DNA from: Planctomycetaceae bacterium | GTDB taxonomy: Bacteria > Planctomycetota > Planctomycetia > Pirellulales > Pirellulaceae | Assembly: GCA_007121535.1 (NCBI GenBank) | Contig: SKKK01000047.1 | Coordinates: 1-64,000, forward strand | Reading direction: 5' to 3' | Length of the DNA stretch: 64,000 bases | In this document: positions 8,088 through 45,354 of the stretch, one piece after another | Position numbering within the stretch: the stretch's first letter is position 1 | Layout of the letters: every line of letters starts with the position of its first letter | Made by a program: the position numbers and the translations under genes | The notes under the pieces: model-generated | Told to the model about the DNA's origin: nothing | Database searches by the model: none | What the model saw: only the letters and a program-made list of their open reading frames with translations

Positions 8088-8180
8088 GCGGAACGGCGCT
8101 AGCCGCCGGTTCTGCACGCCACCGGCGGCTAGCGCCGTGCCGCTCACTCATTGCGACCCCATGATTTCGCATGGACAACG
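8084..8180. repeat. Palindromic repeat, family A, copy 1 (truncated, inverted)
   Basis: Core palindrome GGCGCTAGCCGCCGG / CCGGCGGCTAGCGCC, followed by GTGCCGCTCACTCATTGCGA and an outer end ATGGACAACG. It matches the left half of copies at 9641-9767 and 24010-24136, in reverse orientation; the opposite terminal repeat is missing. The element begins at GTGAGCGG, and its TGA serves as the stop codon of the asparagine synthase gene. The rest of the intergenic stretch up to 8354 holds nothing recognisable. Confidence 0.75.
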
Positions 8181-8354
8181 GAGCTTGCGGCGGGTTTTCC
8201 GTGGCTTCGAGAACAGCGGCTGGCGACATTCCGGTCAGTTATTCCATCGCCGACGCTTCATCAGTACAATACGGTCGGTTGGTGACAGCGTTCGTCGCAT
8301 GTTGCGACGTCCCATCAACCCGTTCCAGATACTGCGGAAACGGAGGTCGGCACC

Positions 8355-9602
8355 ATGAAAGACACCCTGGCGGTCATCCTGGCCGGCGGGCGGGGAGAAC
8401 GGCTGGACCCTTTGACTCGCGATCGAGCCAAGCCGGCGGTCCCCTTCGGCGGCGCGTACCGGATCATCGACTTTACGCTCTCGAATTGCCTGAACAGCGG
8501 CCTGATGCGCATGATGCTGTTGACCCAATTCAAATCGATGAGTCTGGATCGCCATATCGATCTTGGCTGGCGACGTTTTCTTTGCCGAGACCTGGATCAA
8601 TTCATCGACATCGTACCGCCTCAGCAGCGCATCGATCGAGGTTGGTACGAAGGGACCGCCGATGCCGTCTATCAGAACATCTACACGATCGAGAAAGAGA
8701 ATCCGCAATACGTGGTGATTCTGGCCGGCGACCACATCTATAAGATGGATTACGCTCGAATGCTGGAAAGCCATATCGAACGTGAGGCGGACGTGACGAT
8801 CGGCGTTTTTCACGTCCAGGTGGACACGGCGGCTCGACAATTCGGCATCATGGAAATCGACGCTTCGCACCGGGTGATCGGATTCGAGGAAAAGCCCGAG
8901 CACCCCAAGCCGATTCCCGGCGACGAACAATACTGCCTGGCGTCGATGGGCATCTATGTTTTTCGAGCCGATTTCCTGTTCGAGCAATTGCTGGAAGACG
9001 CCAACCGGCCGAACAGTCGACGCGATTTTGGCCGCGATATCATCCCGGCGATCATCGATCAACATCGAGTCTATGCTTTTTCGTTCCACAACGAGACCGG
9101 TCGGCCGACGTACTGGCGAGACGTGGGAACGTTGGACGCGTACTATGCCGCGAACATGGACCTGGTGTCGGTCGAACCGGCTCTGAACCTGTACGATCAG
9201 CAGTGGCCCATTCGCACCTATCAGCGAGTCCTGCCGCCACCGAAGTTCGTTTTTCGCGGCGGCGATCAATCCCAACGGATCGGGCAGGCGCTGGACAGCA
9301 TCGTCTGTTCCGGTTGCGTCGTTTCCGGGGGCTCGGTCCACGGATCGATTCTCGGATCGCAGGTGCGCATCAATAGCTTCAGCGAAGTCAACGACTCGCT
9401 GCTGTTCGATAGGGTCAACGTGGGACGCCATTGCCGGATTCGTCGCGCGATCATCGACAAGGATATCGACATCCCGGAACGTACCGAGATCGGCTACGAC
9501 CTGGAAAAGGATCGAGAACGCGGTTTCAAGATCACGGACAAAGGGGTTGTCGTGATTCCAAAGGTGGATGATCTGACCGAGATGCTACGGCGGGCGCCGT
9601 AA
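8355..9602 (+). CDS. glgC: Glucose-1-phosphate adenylyltransferase (ADP-glucose pyrophosphorylase)
   Basis: 415 residues. The N-terminal nucleotidyltransferase signature A-G-G-R-G-E-R-L (10-17) is followed by [11 protein letters not shown], the loop binding ATP and the activator, and by the G-T-A-D-A-V-Y-Q-N block. Further on are the E-K-P substrate region and [10 protein letters not shown]. The C-terminal third is a left-handed beta-helix with hexapeptide-type spacing. It makes ADP-glucose from glucose-1-phosphate and ATP, committing carbon to glycogen or related glucosides. A GGAGG site (8341) precedes the ATG. It stands apart from other glycogen genes here. The C-terminal phrase on a lysine/valine-rich tail is as usual for the family. 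Confidence 0.95.
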
Positions 9603-9640
9603 TCGCAGTAGCAACGAATGCGATATTTTATTGGAGGTAG

Positions 9641-9767
9641 TGCGTTGTCCCGGCGAAATCTTGGGGTCGTGATGAGTGAGCGGCACGGCGCTAGCCGCCG
9701 ATGGCGTCGAGAACCGGCGGCTAGCGCCGCGCCGCTCACAATCCGCATTTTTCGCCTGGACAACGCA
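9641..9767. repeat. MITE-like palindromic element, family A, copy 2
   Basis: Terminal inverted repeats TGCGTTGTCC...GGACAACGCA, continuing as CGGCGAAA / TTTCGCC, enclose a second palindrome GAGCGGCACGGCGCTAGCC / GGCTAGCGCCGCGCCGCTC. Both ends are flanked by GTAG, a possible 4-bp target duplication. The element lies between glgC and the aldose epimerase gene and keeps an open frame in phase with the latter, producing a spurious 61-codon N-terminal extension. Confidence 0.8.
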
Positions 9768-9800
9768 GTAGTCGATTTTATTTTGAGGAGGGACAAAAGC

Positions 9801-10958
9801 ATGGAAATGATCCGGCGACAATTCAACCGGTGGTGGATCGTGGGAATGATCGGAACGTTTTCGTGGGCAGCCGACACGGCAAACTCAATGGCCGATGTTG
9901 CCGAACCGTCAGCAGCGAACGTCGAAAAGTCCAACTTCGGTCAGATGCCGGACGGTTCCCCGATCGAGCTTTATACGTTGACCAACGCATCCGGTATGCA
10001 GGCAACGGTCATGAATTACGGAGCGACGCTCACGTCGGTCCGGGTCTCCGACCGAGACGGACGAACGGAGAACGTCACGTTGTATCTGGACACCAGCGAA
10101 GACTATCTGCGCGGACATCCGCTGTTTGGATCGGTCGTCGGTCGTTACGCCAACCGGATCGCCGGCGCCCGTTTTCGCTTGGACGACGCGCTGTATGAAC
10201 TGACGGCCAACGCGGGCGCCAATCACATCCACGGTGGTCGCGAGGGCTTTCAGCGGCTGCTGTGGAAAGCCGAACCGGTCCGACGCGAGCGAGCGGTCGG
10301 CGTGCGGCTGACACACACCAGTCCCGATGGACACGAAGGCTATCCGGGCAACTTGGACGTCACCGTACTGTACGAAGTCACGGACGACAACCACCTGCGC
10401 ATGGAGTATTGGGCGGTCACCGATCGCCCGACGGTAGTGAACCTGACAAATCATGCCTATTGGAATCTGGGAGGAGCCCACTCGGGCGATGTCCTCGGGC
10501 ATGTCTTGACCTTGAACGCAGACGCTTATCTGCCCGCCGACCAGCAGAAGATTCCCAGCGGCGAAATTCGATCGGTCGAGGGGACCGTGATGGACTTTCG
10601 AGAACCGCGAAGGATCGGCGAGCGGATCGAGCATGTCGAGGACCAGAACTACGATCACTGCTATGTGCTGAACAAGCCGACCGACGAACGGCTTTCCTTC
10701 GCGGCTCGCGTGGTTCATCCTCCGAGTGGCCGAGTGATGGAAGTCTTTACGACGCAACCAGGTGTCCAATTCTTCACGGCCAGCTTCCTGTCCGATCGAT
10801 TCCAAGGCGGCGGCAAGCCCTATGGTCCCTATCACGGATTCTGCTTGGAAACGCAGCATTACCCGGATTCGCCCAATCATCCCCATTTCCCATCCACAGT
10901 GCTGAGACCTGGCGAAAAATACCACGAATTGACGATCCACAAGTTCTCCGTTCAGTAG
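9801..10958 (+). CDS. galM: Aldose 1-epimerase (mutarotase), exported
   Basis: 385 residues from ATG 9801, which has a strong GAGGAGGG site. The frame is open from 9618, but that part is the translated family A repeat. A signal peptide (about 8-30, ending near A-A-D-T-A) indicates export. Mutarotase landmarks: N-R-I-A-G-A substrate loop, N-H-I-H-G-G with a catalytic His, N-L-T-N-H-A-Y-W-N-L-G-G with the second catalytic His, and the C-terminal C-L-E-T-Q-H-Y-P-D-S-P-N with the general-base Glu. It interconverts alpha and beta anomers of aldoses, here probably in the periplasm, to feed sugar uptake. It stands alone downstream of glgC. Confidence 0.9.
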   Translation: MEMIRRQFNRWWIVGMIGTFSWAADTANSMADVAEPSAANVEKSNFGQMPDGSPIELYTLTNASGMQATVMNYGATLTSVRVSDRDGRTENVTLYLDTSEDYLRGHPLFGSVVGRYANRIAGARFRLDDALYELTANAGANHIHGGREGFQRLLWKAEPVRRERAVGVRLTHTSPDGHEGYPGNLDVTVLYEVTDDNHLRMEYWAVTDRPTVVNLTNHAYWNLGGAHSGDVLGHVLTLNADAYLPADQQKIPSGEIRSVEGTVMDFREPRRIGERIEHVEDQNYDHCYVLNKPTDERLSFAARVVHPPSGRVMEVFTTQPGVQFFTASFLSDRFQGGGKPYGPYHGFCLETQHYPDSPNHPHFPSTVLRPGEKYHELTIHKFSVQ

Positions 10959-44497: not shown

Positions 44498-45262
44498 CTA
44501 GACCGCCGTGGCTGTCAAGCCGACTTGTTTTGCGATTTCGTGAACCAATCGTTCGGGGTTGATCGGCTTGGAAAACCAGCGATCAATCCCGCCAGGTCCC
44601 ACGTCGATCCCGAATTCGGCCGGATCGGTTCCGCTGACGGCATAAACCTTCAGGTTGCGGAGATCCGACACGCTCCGAATCTTGCGGATGAAGCATCGGC
44701 CGCTGCAGCGCGGCATCTGCATATCCAGCAGAACAACATCGGGCAGCGCGTGCAAGGACAGGTAATCCAGAGCATCCTGACCATCGCTCGCTGTGGTCGT
44801 TTCGATCCCATGCGAGCGCAGGTACCCGGCCAGTAATTCCCTTTCGTTTTCATCGTCTTCGACCAATAACGCTCGCGGTGCCCGAGATTCGTCCGGCGCG
44901 ACCGCCGAATTGGCCTCTTCTTCCAACATCCGCAATTCGCGAAAGATTTCCATCACCGTCTGCTGGGCTTTGCCATTGCGATCGTATTCGCATTGCTCGT
45001 GCAGCCGGTTCAACGCCTCGGCCGCAGCGTCCAGCCGTCGTCGCACCGCGTGAATCAATTCGCGAAGCGATTCGGAGGAATTCCGGTCGGTCGAGAACTC
45101 CAAATGCTTGCGGTCGGTCAGTTCGTGCCGGTAAACGGGCACATCCGGGGGCGCGTCAATCCCGATCCGGGCTACATTGCCCCGCAGCCGTAGCACCTCG
45201 ACAGTGATCCCCAGCGTGGGGAATACGATCTTGTCCGTTTCCTTCCTTGAAAGTACTAACAT
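44498..45262 (-). CDS. CsrA-receiver domain fusion (RNA-binding regulator with response-regulator domain)
   Basis: 254 residues from ATG 45262, behind a perfect AAAGGAGG. Residues 1-50 are a CsrA domain: M-L-V-L-S-R-K-E-T-D-K-I, then R-G-N-V-A-R-I-G-I-D-A-P-P-D-V-P-V-Y-R-H-E-L, keeping the RNA-contact L-x-R and the A-P-x-x-V-x-V-x-R core. A helical linker (60-125) leads to a complete receiver domain (130-245): acidic pocket E-D-D (135-137), phospho-acceptor D180 in L-L-D-M-Q-M-P, Ser210 and Lys232 (S-K-P). This predicts a phosphorylation-controlled translational regulator. No kinase adjoins. The solute operon lies upstream on the same strand, separated by a 440-base gap. Confidence 0.92.
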   Translation of the reverse strand: MLVLSRKETDKIVFPTLGITVEVLRLRGNVARIGIDAPPDVPVYRHELTDRKHLEFSTDRNSSESLRELIHAVRRRLDAAAEALNRLHEQCEYDRNGKAQQTVMEIFRELRMLEEEANSAVAPDESRAPRALLVEDDENERELLAGYLRSHGIETTTASDGQDALDYLSLHALPDVVLLDMQMPRCSGRCFIRKIRSVSDLRNLKVYAVSGTDPAEFGIDVGPGGIDRWFSKPINPERLVHEIAKQVGLTATAV

Positions 45263-45354
45263 CTCTCGCCTCCTTTGCTGCCCATTCGTCCAGCCGACCA
45301 TCAAACGAGGGTGACTTGTGATGGGCTCTTTTCGGTCTTCCTTGGCGCAACGAC

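Follow-up and report, generated by a model that had tools for sequence, protein, structure and literature searches.

CsrA is usually controlled by sponge small RNAs or by FliW. In the 64,000-nucleotide stretch of planctomycete DNA analysed here (the window), one gene joins a CsrA domain to the receiver domain of a response regulator. This raises the question of whether histidine kinases may act on this translation regulator within its own polypeptide chain and, if they do, by which route the phosphoryl group would reach it. We consider this question in terms of the architecture of the fusion and its relatives, the linker between the two domains, the kinases encoded beside the family and, finally, the particular position of the window copy within it.

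Architecture and spread of the fusion

The gene lies on the minus strand (44498..45262), a point that the first-pass annotation had left unstated, and encodes 254 amino acids followed by a stop codon. Its first 51 residues (45110..45262, minus strand) match the Pfam CsrA model (PF02599) with 54.6 bits against a cut-off of 27, and residues 132-243 (44534..44869, minus strand) match Response_reg (PF00072) with 67.9 bits against a cut-off of 30.2 (1.1e-18). At E<=0.001 these are the sole Pfam domains of the protein, in which an ANTAR domain is absent. In phmmer searches, residues 1-50 could be aligned with CsrA chains of solved structure, among them 1y00 and 2jpp, such that R6 and R45 of the fusion fall on R6 and R44 of the carbon storage regulator 1y00; in Escherichia coli numbering, R6 and R44 are the RNA-contact arginines of CsrA strands 1 and 5. 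The FP loop of the window CsrA domain is longer by one residue. In the C-terminal part, the full set of receiver residues is present, comprising the acidic pair (E135, D136, D137), the predicted phospho-acceptor Asp180 (44723..44725, minus strand), S210 and K232, and PDB receivers top the Foldseek list obtained with the model of the window protein. Hence, the earlier claim that CsrA is fused at this locus to a complete receiver is confirmed with respect to the reading frame, both Pfam domains and every residue that had been named.

Homology begins at the ATG, and this start is therefore preferred over a longer, 268-aa frame opening with TTG, which is unnecessary. Ahead of the ATG is the Shine-Dalgarno-like AAAGGAGG (45269..45276, minus strand), which contains the only ANGGA between positions -80 and +12 of the fusion gene. 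The open reading frame is not a chance one, since it has relatives both in the same genus (94-95% and 83% identity, in three genomes) and, at full length, in other genera (36-58% identity).

The first-pass annotation had recommended a survey of planctomycete genomes, with an eye to the possibility that the fusion occurs only as rare isolated cases, and such a survey finds it to be widespread in the class. With an alignment of 13 fusions (A1) as the query and E<=1e-40, matches were recovered in at least 67 of 396 sampled genomes of the order and at least 99 of 397 of the class, one of the latter (G950) being a partial match near a contig start. In a sample of the phylum, at least 18 of 392 genomes match at E<=1e-25, 16 of which all belong to the window's class, while the other two, outside the class, are receiver-only matches. 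These order, class and phylum counts are lower bounds because six candidates were scored per genome. Similarly, a hand count gives at least 22 of 60 close relatives with CsrA and a receiver in one frame, and two short peptide patterns compared against contigs returned at least 12 full-length matches, all planctomycete except one labelled just ‘bacterium’ (L057). The fusion was not found among 240 genomes from the phylum of a Verrucomicrobia MAG or among 247 from the phylum of a Geobacteraceae MAG, at no more than 10 candidates per genome and in sets that contained no positive control. The fusion family is found in the planctomycete class to which the window's genome belongs, and it is not a rare accident.

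For the analysis of conservation, we aligned 137 fusions, 55 from a first set and 82 from a second, from which seven more frames were left out as their C-terminal 150 residues are identical to those of a first-set frame. The first-pass annotation had also named the loss of RNA-binding residues in orthologues as a finding that would count against its reading. No such trend is seen, with R6 kept in 137/137 and R45 in 136/137 of the fusions. The receiver residues are comparably retained: D136 in 132/137, D180 in 136/137, S or T at 210 in 133/137 and K232 in 131/137, with the receiver of L163 having lost both its acidic pair and its Lys. Four members were also compared with NCBIfam; among the 25 top-ranking families of each, all matches were partial and below the cut-off, and none of these families names the fusion.

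Three proteins stand somewhat apart from this picture, namely those encoded at 8001-8840 of L063, 7944-8822 of L064 (both Mariniblastus) and 605-1459 of L076. These are CsrA-hairpin proteins with no His in the hairpin, whose receiver-like part has, as judged by eye, seemingly lost the phospho-acceptor Asp, apparently giving a phosphorylation-dead version.

The 9.3-Mb assembly of the window's genome (G000) has 12 CsrA matches above the cut-off, on contigs C190, C515, C367, C508, C642, C571, C461, C141, C121, C263, C123 and C91, the last of which ends at the contig end before its C-terminus is covered. CsrA is fused to a receiver in at least two of these 12, namely in the window copy and in a second fusion, on contig C141, which is separated by 2 bp from a CheB-CheR-PAS-HK-REC gene. 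Several of the 12 carry C-terminal extensions of their own.

The linker hairpin and the kinases beside the fusion

The segment between the CsrA and receiver domains, which the first-pass annotation had overlooked, is predicted to fold into a hairpin, which is conserved and bears a His resembling a phospho-acceptor. In the AlphaFold2 monomer model of the window protein it forms two helices (residues 60-92 and 96-120) with moderate confidence (block pLDDT 60-77), and that of the L055 protein (Bythopirellula polymerisocia) has corresponding helices (46-91 and 95-121) at better confidence. Both models have the layout expected of the DHp/Spo0B type, namely two helices in a predicted hairpin, the first of which carries the His. 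The predicted DHp-like hairpin of the window protein spans residues 60-120 (44903..45085, minus strand), and its His71 (45050..45052, minus strand) falls in the alignment on the linker His that the family conserves. Across the 137 fusions, helix 1 bears the motif H-x-x-R-N-x-L, with the His in 115, the Arg in 108, the Asn in 110 and the Leu in 120 of them.

How far this segment resembles the phospho-acceptor hairpins of kinases depends on the part that is compared. An alignment of 41 linkers (A4) matches 35 DHp segments of neighbouring kinases, 32 from hybrid partners and three from receiver-less kinases, with an hhalign value of 96.7% (E 4e-10, score 45.6) and with His placed on His; as controls, the best of 200 column shuffles scored 17.4 and the reversed alignment 9.9. 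A4 contains 41 of the 47 His-bearing frames of the first set; it omits three window-branch members (L176, L154 and L156) and the near-copies L179, L182 and L188, and so leans towards the motif. When the nine H-box columns are masked, the score falls to 9.7 and the match is gone, so the likeness to DHp resides solely in the H-box motif, which reads H-E-L-R-N-P in 32/32 of the hybrid partner kinases of the first set. The linkers of seven window-branch members match the family linkers (hhalign 97.5%), and window-branch linkers do not match DHp (1.1%).

Profile searches give a comparable picture. HisKA is the Pfam family with the most linker matches at E<=1 (17 of 41, the best at 4.2e-6), SPOB_a having two of 41; the two SPOB_a matches that were inspected cover the second helix and not the His. 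Linkers scanned singly score 13.8-20.4 bits with HisKA against a cut-off of 26.9, or do not match it; none of the 31 of the 41 A4 linkers scanned in this way passes the cut-off, the linker with the 4.2e-6 match being among the other ten. The window's own linker has no Pfam HisKA match. TPR models match several single linkers as weakly as HisKA does, and a search of the PDB with the A4 profile returned repeat proteins by low-scoring repeated matches and no DHp. Foldseek and VIA-align, run on whole models, gave lists filled by receiver domains and so barely probed the hairpin. Judged from these comparisons of sequence, there is a resemblance to a phospho-acceptor site at the motif, beyond which any homology of the hairpin to DHp would be conjectural.

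The gene neighbourhoods bear on the question from another direction. A kinase gene lies within 1 kb of 91 of the 137 fusions, hybrid in 79 cases and receiver-less in 12; a further fusion has a truncated kinase, which is not counted here, and the remaining 45 have none. All these figures depend on a kinase profile built from eight partners, which dissimilar kinases may escape. The 79 hybrid partners, 45 on the same strand as the fusion and 34 on the opposite one, are separated from it by a median gap of 141 bp, and every one of them has a C-terminal receiver with Asp and Lys intact. CheB-CheR modules were detected by profile in 54 of the 79, and among eight partners scanned with Pfam the architecture is CheB-CheR-PAS-HisKA-HATPase-REC in four and DUF4118-HisKA-HATPase-REC in four. 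As a background, the same 126 loci contain 13 further hybrid kinases in 1.6 Mb (~0.008/kb). Among the 11 other CsrA loci of G000, some with short flanks, a kinase is found within 1 kb at the second fusion only, and one other locus has a kinase frame ~1.7 kb away. Control of CsrA by a histidine kinase through the fused receiver, as the first-pass annotation had envisaged, is thus probable for the family. Next to the window copy itself, no kinase was detected.

Some of these loci are more elaborate. The L185 cluster has two CsrA-receiver fusions, two CheB-CheR-PAS kinases, one with and one without a receiver, and a CheB-CheR-PAS protein without a kinase domain (8163-10733). In L054 (9038-13083), two fusions enclose a CheB-CheR-PAS frame and, after it, a HisKA-HATPase-REC frame, which together resemble a single hybrid kinase gene that has been split. 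In L181, several short frames with receiver matches flank the fusion and its kinase, both past the CheB-CheR hybrid kinase that adjoins the fusion and on the fusion's opposite side.

The linker His co-occurs with a particular type of kinase. In the first set, at a distance limit of 600 bp, it is present in 32/32 fusions beside hybrid kinases, 0/3 beside receiver-less kinases and 15/20 with no kinase, and a prediction on this basis, with the same limit, was fixed before the 80 new regions of the second set were fetched. As computed, the second set gave 44/44, 2/6 and 22/32, respectively. The two exceptions were then reassigned: the kinase of L226, receiver-less by the hit-start threshold, has a Response_reg match in Pfam (4.5e-23) and is a hybrid, and that of L232, cut by the contig end after its HisKA domain, was set aside, which brings the second set to 45/45 against 0/4 with one kinase left unassigned. 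With the limit widened afterwards to 1 kb, the two sets together have the His in 79/79 fusions beside hybrid kinases, 0/12 beside receiver-less ones, 35/45 with no kinase and 1/1 beside the kinase of unassigned type. Receiver-less status was confirmed with Pfam for the three first-set kinases and those of L219, L220 and L245; for those of L230, L203, L209, L224, L234 and L238 it was assigned by the receiver profile and, except for L238, by the C-terminal sequence too.

The association is also seen within single loci, as the L185 and L219 clusters each hold both a His-less fusion by a receiver-less CheB-CheR kinase and a His-bearing fusion by a hybrid one. An extreme form is found in L234 (12354-12914) and L238 (4752-5312), where the hairpin is deleted and CsrA is joined to the receiver in a protein of 186 aa; the CheB-CheR kinase nearby, 0.8-0.9 kb away, yielded no receiver match. 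In phylogenetic terms the events are few: ten of the 12 receiver-less cases form one clade, and the tree offers three independent pairs, one of them on well-supported branches, which is too few for significance in a sign test. All three pairs point in the same direction, because the association is perfect in those rows. The tree requires six changes of the His, and the rows without it all fall outside the hybrid-neighbour class, which makes up 58% of the rows; if His changes were random, a rough estimate for this outcome would be ~0.42^6 = 0.005.

Going beyond what is observed directly, namely the domain composition, the conserved residues, the hairpin prediction, the kinase neighbourhood and the pairing of the His with hybrid kinases, we propose that the fusion is a response regulator with a CsrA output, which in typical members receives its phosphoryl group by a relay that passes through the hairpin His, a proposal that we hold to have an even chance of being correct. 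We infer phosphotransfer via the His, dimerisation, an effect on RNA binding and its targets along the following lines. The neighbouring hybrid histidine kinase (H1, D1) would pass the phosphoryl group to the conserved hairpin His (H2), from which it would move to the receiver Asp (D2), and phosphorylation of the receiver would alter the binding of the CsrA dimer to GGA-containing mRNA leaders. The hairpin itself may act like Spo0B or a DHp shorn of its ATPase, both dimerising and relaying. In its full form, this would be a four-step relay ending on a translation regulator, with the relay His, the receiver and the RNA-binding output united in a single polypeptide, and with loss of the His where the partner kinase lacks a receiver; we consider this fuller version a little less likely to be right than wrong. 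The persistence of the His in those 35 of the 45 fusions that have no nearby kinase speaks against a relay.

The strongest alternative, which we regard as possible and distinctly less probable than the relay, is that the kinase phosphorylates the receiver directly, the hairpin being an element for dimerisation or coupling, in which the His and Asn perhaps form a phosphatase or docking site for the protein's own receiver. The Asn at His+4 in H-x-x-R-N, found in 76 of the 79 fusions beside hybrid kinases, points in this direction, as this is the position linked to phosphatase function in HisKA kinases. The residue that follows the hairpin His also favours direct control in not being fixed (A, D, E, Q, G or K), the equivalent residue of kinases being usually acidic. 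Further, as the 12 fusions near receiver-less kinases, all without the His and two of them without the hairpin, keep D180 in 12/12, the receiver appears to be used there independently of the hairpin His. What direct phosphorylation does not predict is the distribution of the His, 79/79 beside hybrid kinases vs 0/12 beside receiver-less ones, few as the independent events are.

It is improbable that the receiver is a module for protein interaction or dimerisation in a protein whose CsrA domain is governed mainly by FliW or small RNAs. The genome does have a single FliW gene, which adjoins a plain csrA, and this, together with the degenerate receivers of L163 and of L063, L064 and L076 noted above, would be compatible with such a role; however, almost all of the 137 fusions retain the phosphorylation residues, and a hybrid kinase lies no more than 1 kb from 79 of them.

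The window copy as an orphan paralogue

The relay through the hairpin His is proposed for typical members, and the window copy is not one of these: it is a paralogue and belongs to an orphan branch, a point that the first-pass annotation had missed. This branch, with a moderate support of 80, comprises the window copy, L176, L154, L156, L157, L159, L163 and L223. No hybrid kinase neighbours were found in it, and L159 has a receiver-less kinase 559 bp off. The His is kept in the window copy, L176, L154 and L156 and lost in L157, L159, L163 and L223; N75 is lost in all eight, with Arg75 in its place in the window copy, and Lys232 is replaced by Arg in L163 and L223. For the window copy in particular, the missing N75 and the missing kinase neighbour both speak against the relay. 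As a search of all 64 kb with the kinase profile was negative, the kinase of this copy, if it has one, is distal, and the hybrid kinase beside the C141 fusion is one candidate for it.

The first-pass annotation had considered osmotic or compatible-solute signals a plausible input, given the solute operon with a gpgS-like gene upstream. This link is unsupported and was rejected: neither the gpgS-like gene nor the operon was found beside the fusion in L023 and L176, the same-genus relatives with enough upstream sequence (that of L022 is too short for comparison, and L024 represents the same locus as L176), and what is common to the genus is the downstream HAD gene only, whose conservation beside the fusion is itself confined to the genus. 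The gpgS leader, named earlier as a place to look for GGA, has no ANGGA in the -80 to +12 interval of the longest gpgS-like frame, the true start of which is uncertain. Two ANGGA each occur before the GH13, GT1 and 538-aa frames, the mean for the window being 0.27 per 92 nt.

We think it very unlikely that the window copy is an orphan paralogue in decay, now of little function. No kinase was found nearby, N75 is lost, and its branch mates show the losses of His and the replacements of Lys232 given above, yet three more genomes of the genus have the frame intact, at 83-95% identity, together with the conserved downstream gene.

Relation to known systems and implications

When set against solved and characterised systems, the fusion presents familiar parts in a different arrangement. 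Its CsrA domain (residues 1-51) is like CsrA/RsmA in having both contact arginines; in contrast, the solved CsrA chains that were matched have 49-95 aa and no receiver, and the FP loop of the fusion has the one additional residue. The window protein also falls under the NCBIfam CsrA cut-offs (39.9 vs 73 and 36.4 vs 70.1). With Spo0B, known from the Spo0F-Spo0B-Spo0A relay, and with DHp/HisKA domains, the hairpin shares its predicted helical form, a His in an H-box-like motif and weak Pfam HisKA matches; unlike them, it sits between an output and a receiver with no ATPase domain, and its SPOB_a matches miss the His. We know of no characterised output for CheB-CheR-PAS hybrid histidine kinases, which are the neighbours in 54 of the 79 hybrid cases; the candidate output here is an RNA-binding protein.

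No description of a CsrA-receiver fusion was found in the literature searched, which covered titles and the beginnings of abstracts and few subscription journals. Response-regulator censuses by Galperin may include such fusions, so the fusion may already have been recorded. Receivers with an RNA-binding output and kinase cascades that reach CsrA through small RNAs are already known. The former is represented by the ANTAR response regulators (of the EutV and AmiR type), whose RNA-binding output domain acts by antitermination (PMC3369931, in part); these are like the fusion in coupling a receiver to an RNA-binding output and differ from it in that the fusion has no ANTAR match and its output precedes the receiver in the chain. 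The latter is represented by the BarA-UvrY/CsrA and GacS-GacA/Rsm systems, in which, as here, a sensor kinase would ultimately control CsrA. In those systems, however, small RNAs are the intermediates, with UvrY activating the transcription of sRNAs that sequester CsrA (PMC4682653 and PMC10277598, each in part), whereas in the fusion the receiver is within the CsrA chain. FliW control of CsrA has been suggested for Planctomycetes among other groups (PMC4682653, in part).

The small size of the protein would make relay, receiver and output separable by point mutants, and the orphan branch, the His-less branch and the hairpin-less members furnish natural variants for testing the parts. If the proposal is true, direct phosphorylation of the translation regulator would constitute a third mode of CsrA control, in a family found in roughly one in four of the genomes sampled from the class (99/397). 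It would give an output to the adjoining CheB-CheR-PAS hybrid kinases, and in these planctomycetes signals may be wired straight into translation control.
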